NCBI GenBank assembly: GCA_026075535.2
Contig: AP026547.1
Location: forward strand, 4,836,001-4,900,000
DNA length: 64,000 bases
DNA from: Tricholoma matsutake
Taxonomy: Eukaryota > Basidiomycota > Agaricomycetes > Agaricales > Tricholomataceae
Reading direction: 5' to 3'
Made by a program: the position numbers and the translations under genes. Below are positions 27,136-62,956 of the stretch, piece by piece. Below the pieces are notes generated by a model. The model searched no databases. It was not told where the DNA came from and was given only the letters and a program-made list of their open reading frames with translations. Position 1 is the first letter of the stretch, and every line of letters begins with the position of its first letter.

Positions 27136-27386
27136 GTTTTTTAAACACCCAAACTCATATAGAGTTAAGCTCGACATCACCCCATCAGCAATCATCATCA
27201 ACATGACCCTGAACTTCTCCCGCGAAGGGAGAAAATTCTCAATGCGATCAGCGATGGAAGCATATCTGTCGCTAGGACCTGAATCAAGTTTCTTTTGCAC
27301 TCGACTCTTTGCTTTTCGCCCACTGCTACGACCGAAATTTTTTCTTTTCTCTCCATTGCTGAAGACTGTACAACAAGACTGACACC

Positions 27387-41043: not shown

Positions 41044-41720
41044 CTCTAGTCATCATTTGGGCCCATGAACAGTTGCTCAGGGGTGGGTGGTGTGTCGTTC
41101 CTGTTGTTGTTGTCATCTTTGTTGTCATGGCTGTGGTCTCGTCGTCTGCATTCCCCATTGTTTGCTCCTTGTCCCAGTCATCCCCTTTGTCCCTGGCCAG
41201 TCCTGGTGCCCATTGTTCCTGTCATCCCTGCCATTGTTGTCCTCGTCATCCTCGCTGTCCCCATTGCCCTGGTCCTGGTCCTCCTCAGTGTCATCGTCCT
41301 CATGCCTGTCGTCCCTGGTCCTGGCATCATCTCATCTTCTGGTCATTGTCCCCATTGTCCCGTTCTTGGTGGTGGTTGTCCTTGGTCCACTGTGGCCGTT
41401 GTTGCAGTTTTGCCTTCCTCATGGTTGTGGGTGCTTTCTCATCATCCCTGTTGTCAGTGCTGTCGCAGTTTGCATCAGCATTGTCATTCTCGTTGTCCTG
41501 GTCCTGTCTGCTGTTGGTGTTGGGGCATTTGTCATCAGTGTTGCCTGGCCCTGTTCCCTTCGTTCCGTTGCCATTGTCGTCCTGAGTGGGTTGGGTCGTT
41601 GGTGGTGCATCTCGTTATGCCATCCCGCCATTGCCGCAGTGGTGTTGCCTGTTTCAAGAGATGGTGGGGTGGTTAGTGGCAGATGGCAGTGTTGGGGTGT
41701 TTCATGTGCTTACCTCATAG
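41044..41720. repeat. low-complexity GTC/GTT-rich DNA
   Basis: On the plus strand almost entirely reiterated CCATTGTCC, GTTGTCATC and similar triplets; on the minus strand GACGACAAC/GATGAC. Several frames on both strands are open because of composition, so none is called. The composition matches 60130-61640 read on the opposite strand. Confidence 0.75.
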
Positions 41721-42280
41721 GTACCCGGCTACCTGGGCCTCCTGGTACCTCCCTGGGGTCTCTTAACCTCAACCAACCCCCCTCACATCCCATTTGGACA
41801 GGGAGGAGGGCATAGGCATGCATCATGCATTGTCATTGTAAAAGTAGTAGATAACCTAAAAATAACAGAAAAAAACTTGTTAGAACTTCAAAAACTACAA
41901 AAACAACAATAAAAATACTTAGTTTACATGTTGACGGCTGTTGACATCCAAATCCACGTGTGACGTGGCACTCTTGTGGCCATGTGGTTTGTTGTTGGTG
42001 TTTGCAGCTGTTGATGGCGGTGGGAGGCAGTTGGCGGTGGTGGGAGGCAGCAGGCTTGACCGTCGATGGTGTGGTAGGAGTGGAAGTGAGAGAGCGTGCA
42101 AACATGTCAGACCTTGGTTGATATTGCACATGAAGTTGAAGTCTCGGGTGTGCCGGGTATAGATACGACATGTGACTTTCTGCATGAGGGCAGGTTGAAA
42201 TGACTTACCTTGCACAATGCATAGATGATGAAATTCAGCCTGCTGTGGTATAAAATAATGACTGAGCAAGAAAAACATTC
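41721..42280. other. no gene seen
   Basis: Non-coding spacer between the low-complexity block and the 119-bp tandem repeat; short ORFs on both strands look like chance. Confidence 0.4.
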
Positions 42281-42650
42281 CATCTATTTGATGTTTGAGT
42301 ATTAAAAGCACCCCTATAATTCATTCATTTTCAAGAAGAAATTTCATCCTACTCACTTATGAAAAAGTTGTAATAAAATATGTCTGACTTCCATCCATTT
42401 GAGGTTTGAAATCTACAGTATTAAAACCACTCCTATAATTCATTCATTTACAAGAAGAAATTTCATCCTACTCACTTATGAAAAAGTTGTAATAAAATAT
42501 GTCTGACTTCCATCCATTTGAGGTTTGAAATCTACAGTATTAAAACCACCCCTATAATTCATTCATTTACAAGAAGAAATTTCATCCTATTCACTTATGA
42601 AAAAGTTGTAATAAAATATGTCTGAATTCCATCCATTTGAGGTTTGAAGG
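42281..42650. repeat. 119-bp tandem repeat, about 3.1 copies
   Basis: Units starting CCCCTATAATTCATTCATTT lie at 42311, 42430 and 42549, each containing CAAGAAGAAATTTCATCCTA and GAAAAAGTTGTAATAAAATA. Copies 2 and 3 are almost identical; the first is partial at its left end. Confidence 0.93.
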
Positions 42651-43036
42651 TGCATAGTCTTGCTGAATAACCACATGCAGCAAATCAACCTCAGCATGAC
42701 ACTGGGGTGCAGGAGAAGCCAGTTTTTGAGGAACTACATCATGGAGAGCTTTGAGGCAGTGGCTGAGGGATGCCGCCTACTTGCTGCTTCCTGTCATATC
42801 GCCCGAGGCGACATCGTCTTGCAGATAGCCCCACATCTTCCTGAGTTACTGCTCATCCATACAGTTTCAGAACTCTCATAGCCACTGTAGCTCATGCATT
42901 GCTTGGTTTGAGCCATAACAGTCTATCCACATTTTAACACATGTATTTACAGTCTTGCTAGTAGTTTTGCAGATCAAATGGCAGTGTCTATGCAGTATGT
43001 GTCACTAAGCGCACTCTCATGCTGCTCGCTGACTTG

Positions 43037-44498
43037 CTAGCTGAGCAATGGAAGACTCAGGGCGGGATTGCCCTTGTGCCACAACTGGGCGCCCACCAAA
43101 TACCTTGCTAGGGGTGCAGAATGCTCAATGGATGTGCTGAGGTGAAGGTAGAGACAATCACCTTGTCCACCATGAAAGAAGCGAGATCGTTTGTGACTGG
43201 CTTTCTGGGCCAACAGGGATCTCAAAGTAGTCCAAGATGTTGTTGTAGAAGTCGACATAGCTGAAGCAGCCATTGTTTTCATTCCAGGCATTTGCATTGG
43301 AGAGCACAAAGTGAAGCTGGGGCTTGTCAGTACAGCAGCGGCAAAATTGCCCACCTGAACTGCAACATAGGCAAGGGACTGAGGCATCACCGCCTTCATG
43401 CCCAGTAAATTTGCAACGTGCCCATGCATTGGTGCCTTCTGGTTCCTCCTGGGCCGCTTCCTCGTGGATGGGGTATGCTCTTCTACATCCTCTTGACATT
43501 CGATGCCTTGTGCGGAGGAGGGAGAGGTGAAGATGAATTTAAACGCCTGTGAAAGCGGGGTTATGGCTGAGGCCCCTGGGTCAAGAATGCACTGAAGAGT
43601 GCACCTTGAGCAAAATTGCACTACAAAATAGACTGCTTTCAATGTTCTCGATGCTGCCGCTGGCTTTGGGGTAGAGAAAGGCCGGCCATGAATCTGCCAT
43701 GACTGTGAAGCTAGGGCTACCTTTGCGAACGCCAGCACAAACTCTAAACAACAAGCGCTGGCAGGTCAGGTGTAAGATGCATACAAGGGGGGCCTATGGC
43801 TCATGCAGGATCCTCCCAATTGTAGTCTATTGGGCAAAGGAGGCGCCCAGTGTCATTGTGTTCAAATCCTCAATCCATCTTTGAGGTGGGAGGGAGTGGC
43901 CTGGATATGGGGCCGCCGAGCACACCTGCTATCCAGCTGACCACAGCCAGTTTAAGATTTGCTGCATCATCGCCTCGCCCTCCGCCTGCGCCCTTCTGGA
44001 GCTGCCAACTGCATTAGCATCAGCCTATGGGTAAAGGTTGGCACTCACATCTTGAAAATAGGTGTTCAATTCGAGTACATCCTGCTTACTTAGCTTGGTT
44101 TTGAGGCCGGGGATGTGGCATAATAGGAGCTTGTATCCCTGGTAAGCCCGGCGCTGCCTGGGCTGGGGGTCACCATTCAATCCAAAGCATGATGAGGGAA
44201 GTGGTACTCCGGGGTGGGCTCAAGAAGCTCGTCCTCAGGCTCTGCATCTGCCTCCAGAGCTTGTCGCCAGTCACTCTCTTCAACAAGCTCATCGACAGAC
44301 TCAAACATCGACATGAGCCAGCATATAACTCTGCCCTGGTACCTCCATTAAGAAGCATGTGCAACATGGGTTTGGTGGCACATACGATTTTTGTTTCACA
44401 CCTGCTTGCTCAAGGTTTTGAAGCTGCTGCTCCAAGGCAGCAATATGCTGCTTCACACCCATGTATATGGCAATGATGGGGTGTTCATCTATGGCCAT
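43037..44498 (-). pseudogene. unrecognised decayed gene
   Basis: From ATG 44498 (MAIDEHPIIAIYMGVKQHIA) a leucine/glutamine heptad segment (HIAALEQQLQNLEQ), then after frame changes an acidic segment (VDELVEESDWRQALEADAEP near 44260). Further on, a segment (PQLHFVLSNANAWNENNGCF, YVDFYNNILDYFEIPVGPES near 43260) precedes a Trp-rich end. The reading frame shifts several times and contains stops. I have an impression of similar FSY.DFYNN...YFE.P segments in uncharacterised basidiomycete proteins but cannot name the family. It sits with other broken genes transcribed in the same direction. Confidence 0.4.
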
Positions 44499-45488
44499 AG
44501 TAGCGTGATGAGCAGAGACTGAGCTGACACTAACCTGTCAAACTGGTCATTCGGAACAGAGTTCAGTGCAGGAGGTTTGGTTTCTGGGAAACCGGCTGGA
44601 GGTGCGGGTTTTTATACCATCCAGCTGAGGCATTGCTGGATCTCAAAAGACAGTGCTCTATTCCCAATGATTATTGCCCTAGTAACCATAACACTCAATT
44701 TCTGGGTGCAGCGGAGTGCAGCCCCTGCGTTGCGATGCTACTGTGACAACAGACGTAAGCTGTGGATTTTGGCTGGGTGATCTTCGAGCCTGCAGCCAAG
44801 TCAGGACTAGCTGTGGTGCCACCTGCAAGGAAGTAAAGGTTACTACGCACAACAAGATGGTTTTGGGTAAAGGATCACAGGAAGCGGGTGGAGATAAACA
44901 ACGTAAGCTGACTCATAGTCATAGAAAGGCAGAAGTCCAGGCACATTTACCAGTGCTCCTGTTGTTGGATAACTCATCTGGCATCAAATGTCAAGAACAA
45001 GAGAAGAATATTTGAGGAAAATTGTAGACTCGCTACCAGTACGTTATGCAAGCTCAAGACTTTTTTTGGGAAAGAGCGTGGTGGGAAAAAGCATGAGCAA
45101 TAACTCAGTACCAGCTTTTGCCAGCTGTTGCCGAAAGCGGATGGTCACGAGCCTAGGAAAATCGTAAAGTGATTCACATATTGCGCATAATTCTGAAAAA
45201 AATAGACACAGGAAATTGTATGACAAAAACAGTCGCGTAGTTTTTGGATGTCGAAAATACACCAGAATATTAGGCTACCCATCAAACCCCCCTGTGTGTA
45301 TTTTTTTTCAAGAGAGGCCTTGATTTCGAAATAGTTGGCGCAGCCACTAAGTAATACAATAAGTTGAGAAAGTGCTCAGCATGCATGGCAACTCAACAGG
45401 AGTTCATGCTTTTTCAAACTGCAATCGTATGCACTTGATGTACTACTGGTACAGGTTTACTACAGCAAGAGCAAGGCCATAGCTAGTA
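44499..45488. other. no gene recognised
   Basis: Non-coding or too decayed to read; contains only short ORFs on both strands. Confidence 0.4.
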
Positions 45489-47049
45489 CTAACTGTCATT
45501 TTTCCATGCAAGTGCACTCAATTCATCCATTGTAGAAAATAATGAAAGGCCAAACTTCTCATGCGCTTCCTTATGAACCTTTTCTGCAGCATGCTCAGCT
45601 GCTGGCAATCCCTTGGTGTAGCTGTCCTCCTTTTGAAACCCATGCTCTACCCATCTGAATAGACCACCGGCTGCATACTGTGTGAAGGAGTACCGAGTCT
45701 CGTGAGACTGGATGGGGACATTTGAGTGGCTGATGACGGCTGAGGGAATGATGATCGACGCGCCTGGAGGAAACTCTATAACAAGGCCACATTCCCAGAG
45801 GATCAGGTGGCCACCACACGTTGGATCAAAATTTCCAGCACTGGTTATAACACATATCCCATAGGCGAGGTTCCCCCAATCCTTATGTCGATAGCACCAT
45901 GTTGCTGGGCCGAAGTTCAATGACATTGCTGTCCAGAAAAAGGTCCTCAAGTTCATCGTCCCACTCGTACAGGCATCTAAGGGTGTCATAATAATATTTA
46001 TACATCTTGGGGAACCAAGTGGCAAATGCCCCATTTGCAAAATTGGAAATGCAGATAAGCGAAGGGTGGCGAAGAAGCTTTCGCAAAACTTTGCGATTGG
46101 GTCAGTTGTGGGCAAGGTTGCCCGGCATGGTCTGTCCACCACCAAATGATACGCCAGCTGCTAGGGCTGGAAAGGACCCGCGACAATGATCCAAGTCCTT
46201 AAGGGCAAAGGAGCATTGCGCCCGAGCCTCCTCCATCTCCTCATCCAAAGCTGCCAATGCCTTTGACCACCTCTGCTCCTCCGGCTGGCCATCATCGTTC
46301 GGCATCCCAATGCCCACAGCAAAAATCCAGCCAGCACGATCATTAATCAGGATTGATTTCCTGTCAAGCTTCAGCCCTAGGAATTAGATCAGAATCAATG
46401 GTACCTACCTACCATCCCACTTTAGGAGCTTAAATTTGAAGTGCGAGCCCACCCTGACCAGATCGTCCAACACGTATTTTGTCCTATCCTTCAGCTCCTT
46501 TGCATCACGTAGGCCAATGTAGCCAGGGTCCAATATCAGAATATCCACGAGGTTAACGTCAGCCTCGATGGTGTCCGACTGGTGCACGTGCTTCTAGTGG
46601 GTGGAGGCACAAGCATCGTAAGGCTGACCACCAGCCTCTCGTTCCTTCCGCTCATTGGCCCGTTTGTGTTTCTGCTTTGCATGGCTCCTCGTCTTGTTGC
46701 TGCAGTACCTCCCATCTGCCTTTTTAGCCTTGCCTGGTAGGCCAGCCGCTGTAGAAGAGGAATCCCCTGGCATCGGCAGAGGTTCTGGGGGTGAAAGTGG
46801 GCCAATCAAGGGGAGATCCCGGCTATCCAGTGAAGTCAGCTGCTGAAAAGGCAAAGGTGGCAGTGTGGGTTCTGGTGAGGTGAGGGGGGAGCCGCTAACC
46901 AGGCCACAACCAATGTCCCCACAATCTAAATAGCCAAATAGCTCCTCCTTTTCAATGCTTAATTCCAAAGTGGATTCAAAGTCAAATGACGCATTGGGGA
47001 CACTGATGGGGGTGGGCCACCGCTTGTCAACCTGTCCAGCCTTTCCCAA
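45489..47049 (-). pseudogene. 2-oxoglutarate/Fe(II) dioxygenase-like gene (frameshifted)
   Basis: N-terminal disordered region (46594-47049, Pro/Ser/Lys-rich, with a basic KQKHKRANERKERE stretch). Then LLKWDGRKSIL.., a segment KDLDHCRGSFPALAAGVSFG and GGGQTMPGNL near 46140, helices (FANGAFATWFPKMYKYYYDT near 46000) and a double-stranded beta-helix core. The core shows H-x-D in CYRHKDWGNL (45890), CGGHLILWECGLVIEFPPGA, the distal His in AVISHSNVPIQ and the 2-oxoglutarate-binding Arg in ETRYSFTQY (45690), so all metal and cofactor residues are visible. One frameshift at about 45925 in a T run and a TGA near 46107 break the frame. It may be of the fungal TET/JBP type (oxidation of 5-methylcytosine), a family known to accompany basidiomycete transposons; that assignment is inference, and another dioxygenase is possible. 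Confidence 0.6.
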
Positions 47050-47507
47050 GGTTTGTCAGCCCGTTTTGTGTGATGTGAGGGGTATTCCTACCCTTTTTCC
47101 ATCTAAAACTTCTTCAGGGTCAACTGGAGTAGAGTGCATGTCAGTTCTATCTTTTATTGGTCCCCACCCTAAAGCTACGTGTTGCTTGCGCTGATTTCCC
47201 GGGCATGAGTAAAGGATGGGCATTGCATAGCTAATAGGGTAGGTAAAGGGGATCTCACCTTGAGGGGACATCTGTGGACACTGGATGGCTTGAAGTTCTT
47301 GCCAAGGTCTAATTATAAACAAAGGGCAGATGAGGAGCCAAGAATTCCACAACTTTTGCCAGCGCGGAAAAGTTAAAGCCAAAAAGGTTGGGAGCAAATA
47401 AGCACACATATTAGTATACTTAGTCACGGTGGCTGTGTGATGTTGACTAATGTCACGTGCTTCTAAATTGGTCGAAAAAGCCTGAAACAGTGTGTATGTA
47501 CTGAGTG

Positions 47508-47751
47508 TAGCACAACAACTCAATAGAAAGTATACTTCCTAAGAAATGTGATGAAAGTCATCTTTATGAAGTATACACCTTGGGAGAATCCACGCAAGAG
47601 GTCTTGGCGCTGTACGAAGCTCCCAATGACATTTTATTTGGCATGCTTTTTGGAATTCCATGACACCAAATGTGTTTTCCACAAAATTAACTATCGTATG
47701 ACTTTCACCACATTTCTTAGGAAGTACATTTCCTATCCAGTTGTTGTGCTA
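47508..47751. mobile_element. MITE-like element with long inverted ends
   Basis: About 65-70 bp at each end are inverted copies: TAGCACAACAAC, then CTTCCTAAGAAATGTG and TGAAAGTCAT on the left, with their complements on the right ending TTGTTGTGCTA. The total is about 244 bp with no ORF. Flanks ACTGAGTG and AATCAGTG suggest a degenerate 8-bp target duplication, as in hAT elements, but the right flank is offset by one base. It lies between two decayed minus-strand genes. Confidence 0.7.
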
Positions 47752-47833
47752 CAATCAGTGCACATTTTGTGCTTTTTTGACTGACATTGGTATGGACTTG
47801 ATTCTCGATACAAATACATGGAACAGTGACAGA

Positions 47834-49420
47834 TCATGAAATAATAACTCTTTTTAATGCGATGGAAATTAACAGCGCAAAGCCCTGGGTGCTCAGCCAT
47901 TGCGAGTCAGATACTCGAACCAGCTGCATAGGCATTGAGTAATTGGAAAGAATTTCCAGAGTGCTTTGGCATATGTACTGTTGGCTCGCAATGATATCAA
48001 GTTCATTTTGTATGTCCTCAGGCCTTGGAAAAAGCTGGAAGCGGTGGAGCATTTGCAGCTTACCCTTATCCCCCTCTGTCACCTCTGTACCAAAGAGATG
48101 GCGGAGCTCCCCAAAAGGCACACGCCATCTGTTGAGACTGGATTTGTTGTGTCCCTTGCCATCCAACCACTCCTCAACTGAAGCGGTCATCTGGAAAAGT
48201 GAAGCAAAAGTGTGAGGGCTAGAGCAGAGGACGCACCATGGTCAGGATAGCATTGTATGCATCAATTGAGCCATGGGTGGCCCATGGAAGCCCACTGTCA
48301 GGATATTGCCCTGTATGTGTGCATTGGTACCATGCAAACATCCTGGTAGCCACCCCATCTGGGCCATAGTATACATTTTCAAAGATATCAAAACAAAGGC
48401 CTGCCATAAATAAGCCCTTGAGCAAAGGTCAGTGCAGGCAAAGATTGGGGCTAGCTGTGGCATACCTGCTTGTGGTGAAGGACATTGGGCCATGGGAACA
48501 TCTCTGCGGACTGAAGTTGATCTCGAAAGCCACTTCCGAAGGGACCACCGGAGATGATTTCGCTGCACTTGTCCCTCATCTATAGGCCCCAAGAAGGCCC
48601 TAGTCCTAGATGCTCCAGTTACCCATCACAAGTGCATCCCCACCAGCAGTCTGGTGGATAGCTGCAGCTTCTTCATCCCCATATCAATCCGCATCACACA
48701 GAGCTCAATCAACTGGCTCTCCTGGCTGGGGCCTGTGGGCAACTGGGTTCATTGAACTGCAGCAGAGAAGGGTGCACAAGTACTCACTATTCTGGAGTAG
48801 GTGGCTGAGGAAGCCCCTGGCCTATAGTTTCACAACCTTTCCCACAGCAATTGTAGTGACCTCTGTTCGCACTTTCTGCATGTTTGAAGATGCCGGTAGC
48901 CAGGCAGCCTTCATATAAAAGCTTTCAGTGAGGGCGATTGGATCGGTGTCATTCATCAGGTTAATCCAAAATGTCACACATTCCCTGTCTGGGATAAACG
49001 CACTGATGGCTTCGTCAAGATCGAAATGGGCCACAGTGCTCCGGGCAGTCCTGAAGGATGCTCCATCGGATGACAGGAAAGCTGGCTGGTGTGGCAGAAG
49101 CTTTCATCTGCTCTGTAGATGGCGGCAGTTAGGTCTGATGCTCACGATGTGTGCTTAGAGTTTACCTGGAGCTCATCAGCACCCAGTGTGAGGTTTGCGA
49201 TGGACTCAGAGCTTCTTATGAGTGGATCTGGGATCGTCAAAGATCTACCCCCAGGGATTGTCGGGGGTATATCCTCAGGGATGTCGGGATGACTCTTGAG
49301 TTCTTTAGCTTTTTGAGTTCGCTTGCATTGAGTCAGCTCACAGAAAAACAAAGGGATCGAACTGGGCTTACTTTCTTGGTGTGTGGGTCCATCTTGGTGT
49401 GTGGGTCTGTCAGAGCTTCA
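47834..49420 (-). pseudogene. unrecognised decayed gene
   Basis: Readable segments in order along the minus strand: SIANLTLGADELQVNSKH (49170), FIPDRECVTFWINLMNDTDP and FYMKAAWLPASSNMQKVRTE (48900-48990), LFMAGLCFDIFENVYYGPDG (48400), ATHGSIDAYNAILTMV (48250), SVEEWLDGKGHNKSSLNRWR (48160) and LQMLHRFQLFPRPEDIQNEL (48050). The segments look like exons of one protein separated by short introns and frame shifts, with TGAs. No catalytic motif is recognised. It lies just upstream of the dioxygenase-like gene on the same strand. Confidence 0.4.
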
Positions 49421-49825
49421 TAAAGAGAGTGCTGCAGCTGCTCCCCTTATCAAGGTTTAATCATCATAGACGCTGGCGCAGGTGACTAGCTAGATTCAGA
49501 TGACTGTGTGAGTATAGTAACATGAGGCTTTCATCTCTCCTGTCCATCACCGCTGTACGTGGACAGCTGGGCCGGTTTGTTGCACCATGGGTCTGAGGTC
49601 GTGTTTTTGACTGGATGGCTAGCTGAGTCTCGGCTGCCCTATGGGCAGTATTGCTTTCAAAAGCCATTACAAATTCAATTAGTTAACTCATGAGGGCATG
49701 CCAACGCGTGGCAGGAAAAAAGTTTCTTGGGTGCTAACTATGGCCAAACTGACTGCTAATGTAGCTTCAACAGGCATCCTGAAGCTGAAAAAGGCATGAC
49801 AGACACTGCTGTGGCACACCCAGGC

Positions 49826-50467
49826 TTATTCCTCATCTTTGAGGAGAGAGGACACAGCACTCTCTGTGGGCATGCCGGGCACCCCATTTTCCAGGCCTGG
49901 CATCACAAAGCCAGAGGCAGGGCTCACTAATTCACCTGCAGCAGTAGCACTCTCCACTTGCTTTGCAAGGCACCGAATGTGGTGCTCGGCCTCTTCCAGG
50001 TCCATTTCTACCTGGTGCAGGCCCTTCATGCCTTTGCGCAGTATTAACTGAGCATTGTCTACCACTCCCTCCATCTGTGTCGCCAAATCAGGAGTGATGC
50101 CGGGCCATAGGGGTGCATGCGGTGGCTCAGCATCACCTGACAGAATCTGCAGAATGCCCCACAGTACCATTAGCGTACAAGTAGAAGCACCAACAACACA
50201 TGCACTAGCCTGAGGACGAGTGTTGTGCAAATGCTCGGATCCTTGCAGAAGATTGTCTCCGCTTTCACTCTCTGGCAGAGGGGGGGATAAGTGGGCCTTT
50301 CTCACAGGACCACCGCTTTCCTGCATTTCATGCAGCTTTGCAGGCCGATCATCAGCACACCACTTTGAACTGGCGCTGCCAAATGCATGTCTGAGGAATA
50401 AGAAGGCTCCCTTGACACTTCCACAGCTCAGGGGACTGCAGTTTGTGGTGGGAGCTTGATCTGTCAT
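49826..50467 (-). CDS. small uncharacterised protein with hydrophobic and coiled-coil segments
   Basis: Open frame of 213 codons from ATG 50467 (MTDQAPTTNCSPLSCGSVKG). The N-terminus is hydrophilic. Residues about 97-119 are hydrophobic (CVVGASTCTLMVLWGILQIL) and could be a membrane span. About 135-185 is a heptad-rich helical segment (GLHQVEMDLEEAEHHIRCL), then an acidic tail. No homologous family recognised. It is the least damaged gene of the minus-strand set 43-50.5 kb; coding status rests on length and amino-acid composition only. Confidence 0.4.
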   Translation of the reverse strand: MTDQAPTTNCSPLSCGSVKGAFLFLRHAFGSASSKWCADDRPAKLHEMQESGGPVRKAHLSPPLPESESGDNLLQGSEHLHNTRPQASACVVGASTCTLMVLWGILQILSGDAEPPHAPLWPGITPDLATQMEGVVDNAQLILRKGMKGLHQVEMDLEEAEHHIRCLAKQVESATAAGELVSPASGFVMPGLENGVPGMPTESAVSSLLKDEE

Positions 50468-51057
50468 TACCGGGCTGGAGACCTTATGATAAGCACACTT
50501 TCACCTATGCACTCAGCCTGTGACTTACAACAGATAATAAAAGCTGATGCTAGCAGATAAGATGACTTCCCTGAGTGAGTGCTGGAAAGGAACTTGGAGT
50601 GACTTCAAGTTCAAGTTGTGAGCAATTGCAGCAGCGACAGTGACAATCTGACACCGTGACTTCCAGCTGAATTTAAAATGATATCCTAAAAAATCACATT
50701 GCGGGAGCCAAGTTGTTGATTCCCAAGGCTTTTTTAATCAAAATCGTACCATATTCTGGTCTGGACCTCTTGCCTAGCTCCCAAATAGGCTTACATTCTA
50801 TCAAAATCCAGGTCCCGCAAAGTATGCAATTTTATCCTACCATTTGAATCTAGTAGCTGTCATACACTTGATTGCCACTTGATATCATTTTGGTGAACAG
50901 TGCCTCCATGGGAGTCTCTTGGCAACATAGCCACAAAATTCATGATCCAAGGAACAATATTTTGCCCACTGTGATGTCGATGAACAGCCTTCCAGAATGT
51001 ATGTAACCTAATAATGATCTGCCAGACAGCCCAAGAAAAAAGAAATCAAAGGCACCA
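50468..51057. other. divergent spacer, no gene seen
   Basis: Lies between minus-strand genes to the left and plus-strand genes to the right. No promoter motif can be assigned with confidence. Confidence 0.4.
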
Positions 51058-51690
51058 CTCAACATCAAAGCACTCCCCAGGGAGTCCATCAAGCCAATCA
51101 CCTATGAACTGGCAGATGGGACATCGAGCGACACTCGGTACACAGAAAAGAAGAAAAAAAGACACTGGAAAGAAAAAAAGACACCGCTCAACGTCAAAGC
51201 ACTCCCCAGAGAGTCCATCAAGCCATTCACCCATGAACTGGTAGATGGGACATCAGGCGATGCTGCATCCAGAAAGTAGAAAAAAGAAAACAAAGGCACT
51301 GCTCAATGTCAAAGCACTCCCCAGGGAGTCCATCAAGCCAATCACCTATGAACTGGCAGATGGGACATCGAGCGACACTCAGTACACAGAAAAGAAGAAA
51401 AAAAGACACTGGAAAGAAAAAAAAGACACTGCTCAACGTCAAAGCACTCCCCAGGGAGTCCATCAAGCCAATCACCCACGAACTGGTAGATGGGATGTCG
51501 GGCAATGCTCCATCCAGAAAGTAGAAAAAAGAAAACAAAGGCACCGCTCAACGTTGAAGCACTCCCCAGGGAGTCCATCAAGCCAATCACCCACGAACTG
51601 GTAGATGGGATGTCGGGTGACACTCGGTCCAGAAAAGAAGAAAAAAAGACACTGGAGAGAAAACAAAGGCACCACTCAACATTGATGGAG
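51058..51690. repeat. minisatellite with alternating 130/115-bp units
   Basis: Units starting CTCAACGTCAAAGCACTCCC begin at 51058, 51187, 51302, 51432, 51547 and (partial) 51675, giving spacings 129, 115, 130, 115 and 128. Long units carry ACACAGAAAAGAAGAAAAAA, short ones CCAGAAAGTAGAAAAAAGAA. The array is thus a 245-bp dimeric higher-order repeat. ORFs across it on both strands follow from the repeat and are not called. Confidence 0.93.
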
Positions 51691-51858
51691 AATTGCAAAG
51701 GTGGGTGTACAATTGAGTCTTGACATGCCAGCTGGAATAAAGTGCACCTGACCTTAGTAATCATGCTCGTGACTTACTAAGTGTAATGGTCATGGTATCT
51801 ACAGTTCAACTTCAAGTTTTATCCTCAGTCAGCGGTCGCGGCGAGCTCAGAAAAATTT

Positions 51859-53391
51859 ATGGCGAGAACGAAGCAGACAGCCAGACGGAGCACAGGTGGC
51901 CCTGCACCTCCTACATCCCTTTCGTTAAACCTCAAGCCCGCAACCCCCAGTGCCATCATGGTTACAAAAAATCCCCCAAAGTGATCTGGGGCTACCACCA
52001 CCCGCTCCACTACAGCATCCAGTAGAAACACCAGCAGGCATGTGCATGTGAGTTTATCAGTTGTGTCACTGGGTGTAGTCTCACATCCACCTTGCAGTGG
52101 TGTTCAATCTGCCACAATGGTGGGGACTTAATGTTGTGCAACAGCTGTGATCGTGGGGTTTGCCTTGACTCATGTCTCCCTGCAAATATCCCAGTGGATG
52201 GATTGCGCCATGTGTCCCGACTGTTGGTGGAGGAACAAGGATATGTGGGAGAAGCCTTACAAAGTAGGTGTCTGCCTTGACCCACTTTATTGACCTAACT
52301 ACCAACAGGGCCTCTCAACTGTGAAATCACCGTTGTTTCCTCATGGAAAGGCTATCTCGCGCTCGACGTTTCCGGTCCTTCATCCAGTACCTATCATCAT
52401 CGTATCAATACGATTACAAGGCATGGATCATGAAGGCGACCCCAGCTTTCTTGTTTACAATGTGATTAAACCATTCTATCCCTCTGGAACCTGCCAAGCT
52501 ACTTTTATAAATCTTGTTTACAACATACCCAACGATGATGGTGGGGCAGGGCTTTGTCAATATAATGAAAGCATTGATCAAGCGATCACAAAATTCTCTG
52601 GGTATGCTGCTCTCCCACTCATCTGGTTCTCTCATTGAGAGCTGTTTTAGCTATACCTGATTTATCGTCTTTCTGACCACACACTCCACCCCGGACAGCG
52701 GGCTACTCTGGAATGTGCCTGGTGGAAAAGGGGCGGTGGCTGTTCAGCAGGTAAGCAACTATGCACACATGCCTTGGAAGGGCTCATGGCTCTCATAAAA
52801 GTTACTCAATGTGGTTCTGCCTCTACGATTGCTGTCCATTATTTGCACTGACCCCAGTGCCTCGTTGTTTTTAATCACTTGCGGTGGCATCCATGCTCAG
52901 CCAGATTCTTGATGCCAAATATCTGAATTTGCCCAAAAGTAAGTCACTCAGGCTCCTGAGGATGTCTGGCAATTTAACCCAAGCTTTTCAGCTGTTTTGC
53001 TGCCATCTGGGGCTTCACATCTTTCGACCTTCACCCTAACCTCACTGGACTGTTCCTGCAGAGCCTCATCTTGGTGTTCTACATCAAGCTATGCCCAGCA
53101 CTCCTTGAAAAGCTGCTTCAGGAGTCAGTTGAATTGGGTGCACACTCTGGCATGGTCGTCTATCTCAGGCAAGGTGGTGTTTATGAATACTTTTGGGCAC
53201 ACCCTGCTGCAAGACCTCTCGGTGTGATTCTTCCGCTAAACTGCAGCTCATGCGGTTGTTTGGATTCCTGGGCCATCCCAAAGCTTGCAATCCCGGCTCT
53301 CCCTATGATGGCTGAAATTCCCTGCACAAAGTGCCCCAACACCTTTTCATCCTTGATTCCAGCCCTTTGCTGGATTACAGCTAAAAGTTGA
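51859..53391 (+). pseudogene. H3-tail-like N-terminus plus PHD-like zinc finger protein (decayed)
   Basis: ATG 51859 opens MARTKQTARRSTGGPAP: the first eight residues after Met (ARTKQTAR) and STGG match the histone H3 tail, with Arg at K9 and Pro at K14. A Ser/Thr/Pro-rich linker follows with TGA at 51982-51984. An intron at 52048-52097 joins a PHD/RING-like zinc finger, WCSICHNGGDLMLCNSC and VCLDSCLP, then after a one-base shift CAMCPDCWW. An intron at 52264-52308 follows. Next come a globular domain (FPVLHPVPIIIVSIRL; SFLVYNVIKPFYPSGTCQAT; FIVFLTTHSTPDSGLLW near 52665) and a C-terminal part (LGAHSGMVVYLRQGG; HPAARPLGVILPLNCSSCGC; EIPCTKCPN at 53080-53390). Function unknown; a chromatin reader or decoy is plausible. 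I have an impression of related H3-like/PHD proteins in agaricomycetes but cannot verify it. Confidence 0.6.
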
Positions 53392-54440
53392 GATGCGAGC
53401 AGTGAATGGTTTGCCTGGTGCTTGGACAAACCTACCACAATTAAGTCGCTCAAGTGGTCATACGTAGAGGGGGTGCTGAAAGGCATAGCCACTGACTCGG
53501 AGCACATGTAGTTATGCATCTGTCTCATTTTGTATGCTCAGTTCTATCAATTCAGCCTTGAATCCATCTGCCTATACTTAGTGACTGAGTAATGAGAGTG
53601 CCTGTTGGTAATAATGACTTGGATGTTCATGTCATGGCATGACTAATCCTATCACGTCATGCAAGATGAAAGCTGGCTTCAATTCAAGTTATGGGGTAAG
53701 AAACCTTGGCAAGCAAGGTACTACCTTGACTTGTCTTCTTATGGTCAGCAAGGTTACTCCATCGCCATGCAATGGCCCTGACCCCCACATATGGCTTCTA
53801 GCTTGTAACCTATGTACCCTCACTTCCAATTTGAATTATGCCTCAGCATCTTAGCGAGCTGTACCCATAACACTCAATGCACAACATTAATCATCCACAA
53901 CCCTATGCAACCATTGGTAACTGGCAACCCATGAGAGAATTTGGCTCTTAGATATTCTTGCCATGGTGATTATCCGTTCAAGTTAGTACTAAGTAGTTGA
54001 GCTATACCACTTGTTCACTCAGAGGTTCTTTCTATTTCACAGATTCTGGTTTCCTCTCAGTGCAACTGAAGAGGCATCCGATGTCTGCTGTACAGTCCCC
54101 TCTCAGGTGACTCTCAGGGTCTAGACAAGTATAGTGATCGCTCTGCTTGGCCTACAGCGTTGTTTTCTGCAGGGATGGCCCTGGTCTCTACCGACCCAGA
54201 CCGTGACATTTTAGTGAAGTTGGTTTAACTATGTATAGCAATTCTCAATGGAAGTTAAGAACTATAGGGTTGCAACCACTGGCATACTGACACACCTACC
54301 AATTATTTAGCCACTAGCCCAATGGATGACACTGCCTTCTTTCCCCTTTAAAAAGGAGTTCTTGCGGTGCATAGGCTCACCTTGAAATCCCAGCAACCTC
54401 AACACCTACCCTCCCACATCTACCCTATCACATCACTGTC
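53392..54440. other. no gene recognised
   Basis: Only short ORFs; no motif or repeat structure seen. Confidence 0.4.
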
Positions 54441-55256
54441 ATGCAAGTCATGCTTAGGTTCAGTGGCTCATCTCTACCACATAGTTCCAAGTACTCATGC
54501 TTTTATCAGCACTGGCCCTTTGGCCAATGCAGGGGAGAGGACACAGCCCTCGTCGCCCACAGCTGCAGCAACCCCTGCGTATTGGCCGAACACTTTAGCA
54601 CAGCGCCAGGTGCATCCTTGGCCTTTAGAAAGGCAGCATGCAAAGATATTCATGGAGCAGCCTGGACCTCCGGAGATGGGATTGGTGGAATTCGAAGGCA
54701 TGACTTGAAATCTATGACCTGACTTCCTTTCACTGAACCTATGGCCAAGACAGTTCACTCACAACATGGACTGGGGTTAGTAATTCTGGATTCTAGCCAA
54801 ATCAAGGACGTTGACGGTGCATGCCCAGTTGTTCGCTTCATAGCAAGCAACTTAGAGCCTGATGCCCTGGGTTGCTCACTAGTTCCTGAGTTTTGCCGAT
54901 TCCAACCCAGGCTCAACAGCAATTTGATGTATTTCAAACAACTTCTCAGCTTAAGCACTACTGGAACTGCAGGCATATCCAGCGATGACTTGGTGGGTCT
55001 TTTTTCCCAATGCAGCAGGTGTTTGTTGCTGGTTGCTCACGGTGCTATCAAACACCACGAATGCCCTGATAGCTGCAAAGCTTTTTGCCTCACAGCCTCC
55101 TGCAACCCTCTCACCTGCATTGGGCGCCTTGAGTCTTGGGAAGGGGCTGGATCAGGCATCACGGTCGGAGCATTTCAGCAGATTTTTGTTAAATGCACTG
55201 CATGCCTGAGGTTCGTCATGGAGGCAAAGTTCAGCTCGCATCAATGTAGGCTTTAG
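54441..55256 (+). pseudogene. cysteine-cluster protein, unrecognised
   Basis: Two pieces in different frames, 54441-54722 (LAEHFSTAPGASLAFRKAAC; DIHGAAWTSGDGIGGIRRHD) and 54741-55256 (FIASNLEPDALGCSLVPEFC). The second has two repeated Cys/His clusters: QCSRCLLLVAHGAIKHHECP, then, after a Gly/Ser linker, KCTACLRFVMEAKFSSHQC. Each cluster has C-x2-C followed by H-x1-2-C and could bind zinc. There may be an intron or frameshift near 54730. It lies between the H3-tail/PHD gene and the Plavaka-like transposase on the same strand. No known family named. Confidence 0.4.
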
Positions 55257-55622
55257 TTGTGCACCAGCCCAAGTTCATGGCTTTTTAGATGGAACATGCA
55301 CCTGTTTCTTGCCCAAAGGCATATAGTAATTACTTGATGTACTAGTATCTCAATCATCACCATGAAACCAACTCTAAGCAGCGTCTTCACCTTTTCTGCG
55401 CTTGATATCTAACTTTAGTTTGGTTGTGTAGTATACAAGTAGTTTCTACTTGTATTTATAAGTACTACCGCTTATAAATTTTCAGGCCAATGTGGACTTC
55501 AGTGATGTTGATGTTTTAAGAGGTACTAGTAGTAAAGAGTTACAGGCCACCTGAGTGGAACCACCGACAGCACTACTATGCGGGCAATACTGTATGTCAT
55601 CATACTGACAATATCTCTCACC
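55257..55622. other. promoter-side spacer of the transposase gene
   Basis: 366 bp of AT-rich sequence with a small inverted pair CAAGTAG/CTACTTG around 55438-55454; no gene. Confidence 0.35.
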
Positions 55623-58600
55623 ATGACACACACCTGCTCTCGCCCATGTCTATTTTCATCTACTGCCCAAGCAGGTCTCACCAGGCATCAGACCCACTGT
55701 CCAATTTATAGAACTGCTCAATCCCTTCGGATGGAACTGAGGAGGGTAAGCAAAATTCACAAAGAGCCAACAGAACTTGGATTTTGCAAGGAGAGGATGG
55801 ATGTAAGTCTATACAAACATCTAGTGATCACAATGAATACTATGTTGACTTTTCCTTTTCACAGAATCGTGCGCTGTCAACTTGCAATGTCAATGCTGAA
55901 ACCCTCCAAAATGCCGAAGGTCACCCTAGTAGTGTCACAAATGGATTCCACCCAATCTTCCCTATCAGTTTGAGCCTGACACCCCCAATTTCACCCTCAC
56001 TCTCTTTTCGACCAACACTCACACAAACTGGGCGGCCCCAGTGGAGATATCGCTGTCCAAAACGCTTTGAGGACAACCAGCCTGCTGTACCCATCCCTAT
56101 TGAACAACTTGCTCCTCCAACAAAGCCTTTTATTTGTCAAGTAATTCTGCATGTGCAAGACTTCATGCGTACAGCTGCTAATAGTTTTGGACTTTTGCGT
56201 GAATATAACCACCGCCCATCATATGATCCTGATGAGCATGTTGTTCCAGAGGACTTGGTCAATTTCAAGACAGGCCTCCCTCCACTTCTCTGGAGACAAG
56301 GGACCTACCTGACACTGCACACCCCCCTCCCCCTTGGCCACTTCAGAATATGTTGAAATTTCTACTCATGAACAGGGCAAACTCAGGTAGCGCTCTGAAA
56401 ACTGAGGCTGAGGTTACCCGCCATGGGAGGGAGGTATTGTCTTCCTCAGATTTCAAGCTGGAATACCTAGGGTCATTCAATGCCCACCGAGAGAATCAGC
56501 GGATGGATGCAGCTTTTTCTCCTGTAGCACCAGGCAACACCCCATTTTCAGGTGATGGTTGGTGCGAGGTCAAGGTGGATATAGAAGTGCCAGTGGCCTC
56601 TAGGGCCAAGCCATTGCCACCGAGTCGGACATTCACAATCCCTGGATTTCACTTCCGCCCTTTAATGGAAGTAATCAAGGCAACTTGGAGTGAGGATATT
56701 GTGAAACACTTTCACCTATCCCCTTTCAAGCAAATATACGTCAACCCAGAAACGAAGGCCGAGACTCGCATATTTGACAAAGCTTTCACAAGTGATGTCT
56801 GGATAGAAGCACATGACACACTTCAGAAGCAACGCAATGAGCCAGGGTGCAAGTTGGAGAAGGTAATTGCAGGACTCATGTTCTGGTCCGATACAACACA
56901 TCTTGCGAGCTTCGGCAATGCTGAGGTATGGCCAATATATATGTATTTTGCAAATCTATCCAAGTATGTCCGGGCTCAACCAAACTCGGGCACCTGCCAC
57001 CATGTGGCCTATATACCTTCAGTATGTCCATGGAGCCTCTCCATTTGCCATTGCTTATATTTTGCTATTCAAAGGTTCCCGACAACATTGATGAATTTTT
57101 CATGGATTTTGCATACACACGAAGTCGGAGATCGGCCCTCAAAATGCACTGCCATCATGAACTGGTGCATGAAATCTGGTGTCTTCTGCTGGATGACAAC
57201 TTTTTACATGCGTACCAGCATGGAATTGTCTTAACATGCGCAGATGGCATACAATGACGCATTTACCCTCATATTTTCCCATACTCTACTGATTTTCCTG
57301 TGAAAAGTAAGTTGCACTACAATGCTACTCCACTTCTATACTACTGATTAAATCACAATAGAGTGCGATTAGGTACCACACACAATAAAGGTGATCGTAT
57401 ATGCCCATGGTGTACAGTTCCCACAGCCGAGTTCAACTGATTAGGGCATCAGTGTGATAAAAAAGGGCGCGTTGCTCTGTTACGCTCATACCTTTCAAAT
57501 TTGGTAAACAGGGCTCGAACCCTTATCTATTCCTCTGGGTATCTTGTGAACTCTGCAGTAGTTGAGTGCATACTGAAACCAATGACATTAGTTCCAACCA
57601 TGGTACGTGCTACATACAAATCCTATTTTTACATAAATAAAGTGCTAATCTGTTATTTAGAATGCTTTTGCAGAGAAGTTAGGACCATTAGGCTTTGACC
57701 CATACCCCATGCTCGTTGTTGATTTGATGCATGAATTTGAGCTAGGTGTCTGGAAAGCTACATTTATACACATCATTTGGGTGCTACATGCCACTGTAAA
57801 AGATGGCAGTGCAGTAGTAGAATTGAATCGAAGGTAATTTTGCCATTTTGTAATGTATTTTTCAGTTAACATCTCAAGTAGATTCCATCAAATACCCACA
57901 TTTGGGTTGGATACCATTCGACGTTTCTCGAACAATGTCTCCCAGATGAAACAACTCGCTGCAAGGGATTTTGAAGACTTGCTACAGGTAGCGTGCCATG
58001 AAGCATTAAGTGATCTTGTAAAAAGCTGACCCACTTGAAACTGTAGAACATGATACCTTCGGCAGAAGGCTTACTTCCTGAGCCTTATAACCGCAAACTT
58101 ATGACATTACTTTTCCATTTGGCTGAGTGGCATGCCCTTGCCAAGCTTAGGATGCACACCGAGCATACATTAAATCAGCTGGACCAGGCCATAGTCGCAA
58201 TTGGGCACGAGTTACGATCTTTCGAGGTATGGGCTGAGGAATTTAAACCTGTTGAGCTACCAAGAGAGGCAGAGGCCTGCGATTGTCACAAACATAAAAG
58301 GGCATCCAAGAAAGCATCATCAAGTGGCAGTTCAGGTCATTCAGCTCCTCAGGTTGTGGAAGAGACCACACTACCAGGGCCGGAGCCAGCCGCCAAGTCA
58401 AACATCAAGCCAAAAGCAAAACTGTTTAGCTTATTCACCTATAAGCTACATGCATTGGGAGACTATGTGCGAACAATACGGTTGTTCGGCACGACAGATT
58501 CGTATTCAACTCAGATTGTAAGGCCTCACGATCATTCTGTGGCATTTCTAACATTATATTTGTACAGGGCGAACTTGCACACCGCCTGGTCAAACGCGGC

Positions 58601-59930
58601 TATCAGCGGACCAATAAGAAGGATGCAGTACATCAAATTGCAAAGCATGAACGGCGCCACATGTGGCTACGTCGTGCAAAAGAAGCTGCTGCTTCTCCTC
58701 GAAGACGACATGCTCACCATGTTGCTTTTTTGGAGAGTGACCCACTTCCATTCACTGGGTCCGACCTACACCACCACATGAGTGACTCTAAGAATTTCTC
58801 ACACCATCTGTTGAGCTTTGTTCATCAGCCACCGAACGACCCTGCTAAGAAGGTGCATCCCTCCTTCCCCTGCATACATAAGCCTAATCTGCACTGTCCA
58901 GCAATTTATACCGAGGCTCAAGGATCATCTTCTTTCCCATCTTCTAGGTCAGGACTTCGACGGTGATGAGGTTCAGTATACCAACAAAGATCGTGGCACA
59001 GTCAGGATTATTGAGGACCGTATCTATTCAGCAAAGGTTCTTCGTGTCAACTATACCACATACGACATCCAGCGTGATCAAGATTCGATGAACCCACGCA
59101 ATCATTGTGACGTCATGGTCCTTTCAATGGAGACAGGTCCAGATGCTCACCCATACTGGTATGCTCGAGTTCTTGGTGTCTTTCATGCCAAAGTAATGCA
59201 CAGTGGGCCAAAATCTCGGAACCGCTCAGTCCAGTACATGGAGTTTCTTTGGGTTCGATGGTATGGCATCCAACCAGGTTATCATTGGGGTCTCAAGGGT
59301 GCGAGATTGCCAAAGATAGGGTTCATACCTGACACCGATGATGGTGCTTTTGGATTCATAGATCCCTCCCTTGTCATTAGAGGGTGCCATCTTGTACCAT
59401 GTTTTGCCAGTGGCCGCACATCAGCGTTGTTACAAACCTCAACCCTCACTGCCGCACGCCGACCAGATGAGGTAGATGATTGGGCAAATTTCTATGTAAT
59501 GATGTAAGTCCCCATCCAGTACTTATGTCATAATAGACTAACACTAGTTAGCTTCGTGGATAGGGATATGTTTATGAGATATCTTGGTGGAGGAATTGGC
59601 CACTCCGCAACTCACATACGGATCCATGACAACAATGCAATGGATGTTGATCAAGAGAAGGACATCAAAGAGGAAGCCGAGCCCCTTGAGGACGAATGCT
59701 TGTTGGAGAATTTACATCAAATAGCAAGCACCTTTATAGAAGGGGAGAGGGATGATGACTGGGATGAAGTAGAGGAACTGGTAGATTGTGATAGTGATGA
59801 AGCGGATGATGAAGGGGGAGGAACAGACGATGACACTCAATCTGAAGATGGAGAACCCACCGAAGACAATTTTGGCCCTGAGGATGGAGAGGATGAAGGA
59901 TACATTAATACAGGGTATGGCTCACTATGA
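55623..59930 (+). pseudogene. Plavaka-like transposase, nearly complete, about nine introns
   Basis: Starts MTHTCSRPCLFSSTAQAGLT, a C2H2-like zinc finger. The gene model has introns at 55803-55864, 57022-57074, 57307-57363, 57603-57660, 57834-57881, 57988-58046, 58518-58567, 58853-58901 and 59504-59551; another is possible within 55745-55795. Diagnostic stretches: FTIPGFHFRPLMEVIKATWS, GLMFWSDTTHLASFGNAEVW, LLLDDNFLHAYQHGIVLTCA, a CPWC finger, VVDLMHEFELGVWKA, KLKLF-like AKLFSLFTYKLHALGDYVRT, HPYWYARVLGVFHAKV, FLWVRWYG and FVDRDMFMRYLGGGIGH, then a very acidic tail. It matches remembered Plavaka/CACTA-like transposases of basidiomycetes. Damage is light: TGA at 57255-57257 (GIQ*RIY), a TGA near 57438 and an unresolved one-base shift in a C-rich run near 56320. 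Role: cut-and-paste transposase. Confidence 0.8.
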
Positions 59931-60598
59931 AAGGGGTCATTTGGGCCTGCGGTAAGTTTTTTCTCTTCTATTCTTGTTCTGACTAATTAACTAATTACTT
60001 TACTTTACTTTTTAGGTTCTAAACTACTGGTAACTAGGGGCGCCAACACCAGACAGCCCACGCCCAACCCCGACCATGCAAACCCCTCCTCCCCATTGTG
60101 AGGCTCTCGATAACAGACAGGAGTCAGCAGATGGGTGGCGGGAGACCCGTGGAGGGGAATTCTTGCAAGTTACGCACCAATGAAATCACCGATGACGATG
60201 ACAACAGGCGTTCAACATCGACGACGGCCAGGTGGAGAAGACAACAACAACGGGAGGAGACGAGGACGACAACTGGGAGAAGACGGCAACGGGAGGGACA
60301 ACGACAAACGAGGGGGGAGCGGGCACCAGCGACAACAACAACGACAGGATGATGACAACGAATGGGACCAGGAGAAGACAATGCAGAAGATGACAGCGAT
60401 GACAAGGGGGGATGGCAACGGTGACGGCAAGCAGCACCCGCCCCGCCCCTGCGAGCAGTGATGGGCGGTAACGACCACGAGAAGAGGGAGGGAGGTGGCA
60501 CCACCACAACGCTAGGGGGTCGATGTCGCTGATTTCGGGCGACAGAAATTTATTTTTGAAATATTGTAAATTATGTACTAATAAATAACTTGAACATT
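59931..60598. other. downstream spacer with GAC/AAC-rich low-complexity block
   Basis: 59945-60015 has an intron-like GTAAGT...TTTTTAG that may belong to the transposase 3' untranslated region. 60180-60460 is reiterated GACGACAACAAC on the plus strand with frames open on both strands by composition. No gene called. Confidence 0.5.
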
Positions 60599-61924
60599 AG
60601 GGTGTTTCACAGACCCTCGATATGGACTCAATTCGAGTCCTTAAGTTGAGGCCTCGAGTCCGAGGGTGCAAATCGCCCTCGACCCCACGACTTGCAGCCT
60701 CAACTTCATCCCTAATTTCGTCCCTCGATCCCTTCCCTCACTACACTAACATTTCCATATGAGGCAACACTTTCCCATTAGACAGTTCCAAACAAACAAC
60801 AAACATTTTCCCACCGTCTCAACGTTCAATAACGTTCAATGTTCCACGTTCAACCACCGTACGACATTTCCGCATCCCTCCCATAAGACCTCACCCCCTC
60901 CGTAAATGCGACCTCGACCACCACCATAGCCTCCAGACCCTAAGTAAGTGTTTTATGTAATATTTTTCTTACTGACAAGTTTCTATGTACAACGACAACG
61001 CACGCGGCCCGTACACCCTCCTCCCCATTCAATGGGATGTGAGGGGTTCGTTTTTGTCTAGCACGACCCCATGCAGGTGCCATGAGTGGGTAACCACGAG
61101 GTAAGCACCCGCTACCCCCATATTTCCGCCTACTAACTACCTCAACGTAGGTAAGGGATCCAACACCCGCCAGCACCGCTGCGAGCAACTGCTCGCAGGG
61201 TGGATCGTTGGTAGACGACGGGACTGAGAGACGACAGGGACTGAGATCACGCGATGAACAACAACAAGAAGGGAAGGACAGGACGACGACGATGACGACG
61301 GCCAACCGCTGCTGCGAGCAACTGCTCGCAGGGTGGACGGAGTGTGCGAGGCCAGACAACAACGACAAAATGAGGACGAGGACAGGACGATGAGATACCA
61401 CCACCGCTGCCGCACCAGCAACCACAACCGCAACCGCCGCCACGAGCGACTGCTTGCGGGGTTGACACGCGGGAGGAACGACGACAACAACGGCACAGAA
61501 CGACAAGATGGGGCAGGCATCAACGCAGACAGGACGACTCAGCACCCCCCGCCTCGCGATAACCACAACGGCGAGGAGACGACAAGGTAGGATGACGGCC
61601 ACCCCAACCGCCGCCCCGAGCAACGAGGACAGAGATGACAAGAGTGATAGGGTTTTTTTAATGTATTCATTGACTCGAGTGTGCATATGTACATGCCAAG
61701 TATGTACTCTAAATATGTAATCTACTCAGCAGTACAGAGTTCTACGAGTCCTTGAACTTAGTCTCTGAGATGAAGCTAAGTAATACACCCTTGAAAAATT
61801 GGTGAGCGAGGAGGGAGGGGAGTCTGAGGATTATTTGTTTTGATGTCCTTTTATATGAATCCTCAAATCGGGGTTAAGTTCGAAGGCAAATTGAGGGTCA
61901 TATCGGAGGTGTGTGAAACACCCT
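60599..61924. mobile_element. TIR-bounded non-autonomous DNA element, PIF/Harbinger-like ends
   Basis: Perfect 13-bp terminal inverted repeats AGGGTGTTTCACA (60599-60611 and 61912-61924), with weaker inverted similarity extending further in (CCTCGATATGG against CTCCGATATGA). Flanked by ATT on both sides (60596-60598 and 61925-61927), a 3-bp target duplication. The interior is low-complexity: GACGACAACGAC-type DNA and two copies of GCGAGCAACTGCTCGC (61181-61196 and 61314-61329). No transposase, so it is non-autonomous; superfamily from ends and duplication length only. Confidence 0.65.
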
Positions 61925-61980
61925 ATTAATGTCTTGGACTCGTTCAAGCCAGGCCCAGCATGGCCCAACCCGAACAAGTG

Positions 61981-62430
61981 TCCACATTATAATGGTCATG
62001 TAATTCTACACCGGCATTCCCAAATACCATCTAGAAAAGCTTAATCATCCAATCCCATTGAAATGAGACTCAATTAATGAGGAGGTGTACAAGGTTGATG
62101 AAGATGTTGTGTAAAACTGAAAGCACTTGCCATTGTGACGACCACATTCTAATCTTCACATAATTTTACAAAGGTATTCTCAAATATTATATTGAAGTTT
62201 CAATCATCCAATCCCTTTGAAATAAGACTCGATTAACGACGGGGGTGTACAAAATCTCTATATGGTTGACAACAGTATCTCAAAGCACTTGCCTTCATGT
62301 GCTCAGATTACAATGGCCATGTATTTCTACAAACAGGTTTCCGTGATATTATCTCGAAGTTTGAATCATCCAACCCCTTGAAACGAGACTCGATTAACGA
62401 CAACAATATTCAAAATCACTTAAGCATGAC
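61981..62430. repeat. 159-bp tandem repeat, about 2.8 diverged copies
   Basis: Units begin near 61981, 62140 and 62299 with AATGG/TAATC..CATGTA. They contain AATCATCCAATCCC, GAGACTCGATTAACGA and AAAGCACTTGCC; divergence between units is about 20 percent by eye. Confidence 0.8.
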
Positions 62431-62956
62431 AATAGTGCTGCATTCCACTTCATTGGCATCCAACACTCACCGATCCTGGATAATGATGACAAATAGCAGA
62501 TGACAAAACCAAAGCAATCCTGATGTCCTCATACCATCACCATCGCGGCAACGCGATTCTGAGTTTTCCTCCTGCACTTCTTGTGGCGTCAAGAGCATAT
62601 TCTTCTCTCGTTTCCTACACGTAGTCATAATATGATCAGTCGTTTGTTGCGACATGCAGCCAACTTGAAGTTAACTGACTTTGCCACAATGTTCTCTGAT
62701 AATTAATATTGCATTTAGGGTGTCAGGCTTGGGGGTTGCATTCGTCCTGCTTATCCTTTGGCTGCCAGCAGCAGTGGGCTCTGGGACAAGGATGTCACTT
62801 TAGCCTGAGTTTACATGAGCTAGATGCTAATCTAATCAAACAAGACGTGATCGTATACTCAAAAGGATATCTTACAGGGTTGTGGTTTACTGAATTTATT
62901 ACGCGACTTATCATACTCGATAGACACTGCCTATTTCAAAGTAGTTCCTAGGCCGA
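62431..62956. other. spacer before the acyl-CoA dehydrogenase
   Basis: No gene established. A minus-strand ORF at 62467-62655 (MSQQTTDHIMTTCRKREKNM) has ordinary CpG content, unlike the transposon genes, and could be an exon, but nothing else supports it. The transposon-rich block ends here. Confidence 0.35.

Follow-up and report, generated by a model that had tools for sequence, protein, structure and literature searches.

A gene of Tricholoma matsutake whose predicted product begins like histone H3 and runs on into a PHD-like finger raises the question of what a protein of this design would do with an H3 tail, and whether the tail is a preserved feature or an accident. Viruses and a few cellular proteins are known to have histone mimics, and the openly licensed literature searched yielded no account of an H3 tail mimic carried by a fungal transposon. 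The gene lies in a window of 64,000 nucleotides, which is the whole stretch of DNA analysed in this study.

Structure of the gene

The ATG at 51859 is the first Met downstream of an in-frame stop, and the reading from it begins MARTKQTARRSTGGPAP, with MARTKQTARRSTGGPAPPTSLSL as the longer read (Table 1). The original prediction of an H3-like tail at the exact N-terminus of the predicted protein has been borne out, since H3 and the window copy agree at 15 of the first 18 positions, and a PHD-like finger was found to follow after one intron as claimed, the finger exon coding for WCSICHNGGDLMLCNSCDRGVC... Both introns of the window gene have been deduced from sequence alone, and the reading of P0001 suggests that the break at about 52600 in the window is an intron. 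The coding pieces extend to about 53391, and the gene does not stop at tail and finger but continues into a predicted caspase/CHAT-like domain and a Cys-rich end. The copy was also said to be decayed by a stop and by a one-base shift in the finger; the TGA interrupting exon 1 (51982-51984) was confirmed, whereas the frame of the finger exon is in fact shifted because 11 bases present in both copies on contig C8 are missing.

Table 1. Features of the H3-tail gene and its surroundings in the window
Feature	Position	Strand	Basis or remark
Stretch common to window and C8 copies, with interruptions	42648..62532	.	homology
Tandem array shortly upstream of gene (2.7 copies of a 245-base unit)	51034..51680	+	also before other F1 copies
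H3-like N-terminus, first 18 codons (MARTKQTARRSTGGPAPP)	51859..51912	+	15/18 residues as in H3
Exon 1: tail and basic/Ser-Thr-rich linker	51859..52047	+	aligned with three other F1 copies
Putative intron 1, 50 nt, GT-AG, phase 0	52048..52097	+	from sequence
Exon 2: PHD-like finger, Cys replacing usual His	52098..52263	+	alignment
Putative intron 2, 45 nt	52264..52308	+	from sequence
Predicted caspase/CHAT-like domain, in pieces	52309..52888	+	fold taken from Amanita homologue
His motif FLTTHS	52670-52687	+	within caspase/CHAT-like domain
Cys motif LITCGG	52871-52888	+	within caspase/CHAT-like domain
C-terminal Cys-rich part (GLFLQS... EYFWAHP... C-x-x-C)	52978..53391	+	ORF and alignment
Plavaka transposase ORF	56236..57234	+	PF18759, E 4.3e-15, 56.2 bits, cut-off 26.3
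Plavaka-type right terminus	62515..62533	-	3 mismatches to form at C5 and both C8 copies

Copies in the T. matsutake genome

The genome searched (161,040,721 bases in 13 contigs) was found to hold at least eight copies of the gene, four like that of the window (F1) and four of a divergent type (F2), all of these counts being lower bounds. The near copies of F1 were recovered by DNA search at C8:8,082,124 (88%), C8:10,141,281 (87%) and C5:7,243,719 (91% over 99 bases), the last consisting of exon 1 followed by foreign sequence. The F2 loci were recovered with a degenerate MARTKQTA pattern and protein searches (C8:174,961, C11:215,879, C2:13,449,997(-) and C3:140,314(-)); they carry MARTKQTAKKSTGTSAPRRSL or a mutated form of it, then the intron and then the finger, which is the same order as in F1. 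The fingers of the two types are 42-56% identical, varying with the copy and the alignment. A genome search with the Amanita protein described below returned the F1 and F2 loci again, the C5 one excepted, and no third type.

In the 161 Mb, the degenerate pattern has seven exact matches, which are the three canonical H3 genes and four of the eight gene copies, while the other four copies carry substitutions at residues 1-6. With up to two mismatches, 25 matches were listed for the pattern against 6 for a reversed control. Across the eight copies, 11 to 15 of the first 18 residues are those of H3.

At least seven of the eight copies in T. matsutake are broken. Exon 1 is interrupted in five of the eight, the F2 copy on C11 has an in-frame stop further downstream, and the C8:8.08M copy is split by about 1.8 kb of other sequence; the C8:10.14M copy is open across tail and finger. 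Three F1 copies differ by 116 transitions (60 of them at CpG) and 18 transversions, and the four F2 copies by 98 transitions and 6 transversions, with 74 at CpG. This excess of transitions agrees with a passage of PMC6980582 that reports CpG hypermutation of T. matsutake repeats.

The F2 copies on C8 (175k), C11 (216k) and C3 (140k) are each no more than about 220 kb away from the end of a contig. Those on C11 and C3 have at least 14.8 kb in common at about 97%, which may be a subtelomeric duplication or a large mobile unit. Pfam scans of the F2 neighbours returned one match, which was sub-threshold.

Homologues and conservation of the tail

A single-sequence protein search gave 3 matches before a profile was used, and a search with the N-terminal region of F2 (residues 1-140) gave 159 candidates, none of them at E <= 10. 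The profile of F1, F2 and one fragment retrieved 29 proteins at E <= 1 among 7,994 scored. One of these, the hypothetical protein P0005 of Amanita rubescens (482 aa), is intact and matches with 100% query coverage at E 7.6e-103. Its sequence runs ...SPSPP-MARTKNTGRKCTGEDAPRKQIAS..., then FCALCRNGGALTDCDTCPRTVCSKC...FSCPHC, with the annotated start 22 residues upstream of the H3-like Met. An intact homologue joining the H3-like start and the finger in one protein, to which the original prediction had deferred any test of function, therefore exists, and because this relative in another mushroom keeps the design, the imitation of H3 looks preserved and not accidental. The other profile matches examined are without an N-terminus combining tail and finger, and no relative was seen in the prokaryote genome contigs and viral contigs scanned.

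Two further proteins, P0029 and P0030, have H3-like starts and no finger. P0029 (68 aa, MARTKQTAKKSTGGHAPRRS, E 0.48) may, from its sequence, be another first exon of the family; it has been left out of the family count because similar starts also occur in H3 variants. P0030 (an ENA protein) is such an H3 variant (PF00125), starting MARTKQTAKKSTGGVAPRRSL, close to the F2 tail, and variants of this kind may be the source of that tail.

The first 18 residues agree with H3 at 15 positions in the window copy, 15 in F2a and 13 in Amanita, and residues 19-40 at only 4-5 of 22. Comparison of the segments, in which the F1 and F2 rows are pieced together, gave for the first 18 residues identities of 13/18 (F1/F2), 11/18 (F1/Amanita) and 12/18 (F2/Amanita), that is 61-72%. 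The linker of the same exon is near background, with 10/43, 8/45 and 14/46 for the same pairs (18-30%); the finger has 23/41, 17/42 and 24/41 (40-59%) and the following domain 47/159, 44/158 and 100/190 (28-53%). The tail is hence the best conserved segment in all three pairwise comparisons. Selection would appear to keep it. The tails of the window, F2a and Amanita have A1, R2, T3, K4, T6, T11, G12, A15 and P16 in common; the window copy has R in place of K9, and all three lack K14. No histone Pfam match was obtained for F1, F2 or P0005, the body of the protein being the finger and the predicted caspase-like fold.

The finger and the domain that follows it

The finger departs from the C4-H-C3 pattern, the His position being Cys in all seven aligned fingers. 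The F1 finger has one extra residue ahead of the next Cys after this position, and it lacks an acidic residue that F2 and Amanita have close to the second pair of Cys. The Pfam PHD profile scored F2 at 16.2 bits against a cut-off of 24 and gave no match for F1 and P0005. Judged by these features, the finger is PHD-like and not a canonical PHD. The solved sequences closest to it in a sequence search include the PHDs of CHD4, AIRE and BHC80 (against CHD4, E 1.3e-8 for F2 and 9.3e-10 for P0005), and the Foldseek list for its model, which is a weak one (pLDDT 66, the remaining four of five models at 42-45), is led by BHC80 and AIRE. With VIA-align, the H3K4me3 readers BPTF and TAF3 rank above BHC80. 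The PHDs that the finger resembles (CHD4, AIRE, BHC80) bind the H3 N-terminus, and this resemblance supports the claim that the finger is of a type which binds it. In the full model of P0005, residues 1-169 are under pLDDT 50, so that no contact of tail and finger is visible.

The domain after the finger, which was absent from the original prediction and is new here, is predicted to have a caspase/CHAT (clan CD) fold from a model of the Amanita homologue and a structure search. The best Foldseek E-value for a caspase is only 1.7e-3, and no Pfam match above threshold was obtained for the domain. The order of strand-His and strand-Cys seen in caspases and CHAT proteases is present, and the His is kept in all eight and the Cys in all four of the rows covering them. 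Such a fold would likely change the function expected of the gene.

Linkage to a Plavaka transposon

The locus had been described as transposon-linked, and this is supported by a Plavaka transposase about 3 kb downstream of the window gene on the same strand, as is also the case at both C8 copies, and by a Plavaka-type right terminus. The sequence CATCAGGAGATCAGGATTG (reverse strand) is found as an exact match downstream of the C5 gene and both C8 genes, and the right terminus is present at all four F1 loci. Five other Plavaka copies have one variant of it within 5 kb, and the terminus pattern gave 61 matches against 4 for a control pattern. Its CATCA..TGATG form is that described for the termini of PlavakaB in section 3.2 of PMC12730594. 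The transposase downstream and the right terminus link the gene to Plavaka and place it probably inside the element, the left end of the stretch shared with the C8 copies being cut in the window by another repeat.

The H3-tail gene accompanies three of the five closest Plavaka copies (93-100%) and was not found at the other two, on C12 and C9; upstream of the C12 copy 8 kb were compared, and these match nothing of the window before about 55567. The C5 locus has the gene and the terminus and no match to the transposase segment. No Plavaka was found around F2 in the 17 kb examined on C11 and the 16 kb examined on C3.

Possible function of the H3-like tail

Our study points, tentatively, to a decayed Plavaka accessory gene that encodes a histone mimic whose tail would dock into a PHD pocket, first its own, and gate the protease-like domain against silencing. 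The encoded protein would comprise the H3-like N-terminus, a variable linker, the PHD-type finger, the caspase/CHAT-fold domain with its His-Cys pair and the Cys-rich end. Removal of Met would expose an A-R-T-K end, which may then dock, in cis or within a dimer, into the pocket of the protein's own finger and hold the reader closed. At chromatin, nucleosomal H3 would displace the docked tail; the protease-like domain, if it is active, would then sit at histone tails or at chromatin proteins in the neighbourhood of the element, whose silencing would be countered. This docking has a precedent, because in BAZ2B a histone-like stretch competes with H3 for the PHD of the same protein, as described in part of PMC5663869. 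The stronger version, a self-gated chromatin protease in which exchange of the tail in its own finger for nucleosomal H3 switches on the clipping, in the vicinity of the element, of histone tails or of proteins that bring about silencing, is considered unlikely.

The main rival to docking in its own finger is that the tail acts in trans, drawing or exhausting host enzymes and readers of the H3 N-terminus (the H3K4 methyltransferase complex, an LSD1-type demethylase, HP1-type readers) at the transposon while the finger binds real H3. This is possible and rather doubtful. T11, G12, A15 and P16, common to the three tails, lie beyond the typical PHD footprint, and comparable mimics are known in G9a, SNAIL1-LSD1 and influenza NS1 (described in part of PMC5663869), but the finger is in the same protein as the tail in every lineage read, and a function of K9 or K14 cannot be general because the window copy has R instead of K9 and none of the three tails has K14.

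The caspase/CHAT fold with conserved His and Cys in the same protein would also fit a tail that is the model substrate or inhibitory peptide of the caspase-like domain itself, with the finger presenting H3 tails for clipping; fold similarity does not establish function, however, and we regard this as improbable. For the H3 tail as an import signal K14 is important. H3 tails are import signals for Kap123 (in part of PMC5677370), and an H3-like start that only exploits the histone import route, as a nuclear import or chaperone signal, is disfavoured because K14 is absent while A1, R2, T3, K4 and T6 are kept; the exact N-terminus would moreover be unnecessary, which makes this reading very improbable. 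Least probable of all is a functionless resemblance: capture of an H3 exon is conceivable, as the three H3 genes of the genome end their first exon after STGG, but a recent fusion is disfavoured by codons unlike those of the host H3 genes and by a similarity that crosses the H3 intron site (APRK in Amanita), and chance is rejected in view of a tail kept in three divergent lineages, beside an unalignable linker, as the best conserved segment.

Comparison with known systems

With BAZ2B the matsutake protein shares a histone-like stretch and a PHD-type finger in one protein, H3 binding by the finger being suggested here by its sequence; the BAZ2B stretch is, in the part of PMC5663869 concerned, a lysine-rich internal linker that does not closely copy the N-terminus of H3, and it comes without a protease-like domain or a transposon. 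G9a, SNAIL1 and influenza NS1 (same source, in part) are likewise non-histone proteins imitating H3 to engage chromatin proteins, as is VRK1, whose N-terminus is bound by PHF2 according to PDB titles. Unlike these, the matsutake mimic extends over about 17 residues, stands at the exact N-terminus and has a reader finger fused to it. The finger differs from its closest solved sequences, the CHD4, AIRE and BHC80 PHDs, in its Cys for His and a Pfam score below the cut-off. The following domain resembles caspases and CHAT proteases (8tl0, caspase-6, caspase-7) in its predicted fold and strand-His, strand-Cys order, whereas it is fused to a tail and a finger and lacks a Pfam match above threshold. 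Among the Plavaka and other transposons with TET/JBP genes described in part of PMC12730594, Plavaka elements of Agaricales also bear a chromatin- or DNA-directed accessory gene, whereas here the accessory gene is a histone mimic with a finger and a predicted caspase-like fold; the passages of PMC12730594 on PHD, caspase, protease and histone describe no such gene.

If the favoured reading is true, an H3 mimic joined to a reader-type finger and a caspase-like domain and linked to a DNA transposon would give mobile elements a new way of acting on host chromatin. The intact Amanita protein offers a concrete test object, whose three parts (tail, finger, protease-like domain) lend themselves to separate assays.

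Other repeats and reading frames of the window

The repeat that cuts the shared stretch (window 40475-42648) is 2.2 kb long and recurs, in part or in full, about 25 times or more at 88-96% identity. Within the stretch shared with the C8 copies, the ORF 45489-46160 (-) belongs to a large family (at least 44 matches, most about 75% identical); we take it to resemble a transposon TET/JBP-type dioxygenase, an identity for which Pfam and PDB searches gave no support. The long ORFs 1728-6548 (-) and 27363-34325 (+) appear by eye to be gag-pol of Ty3-type retroelements.
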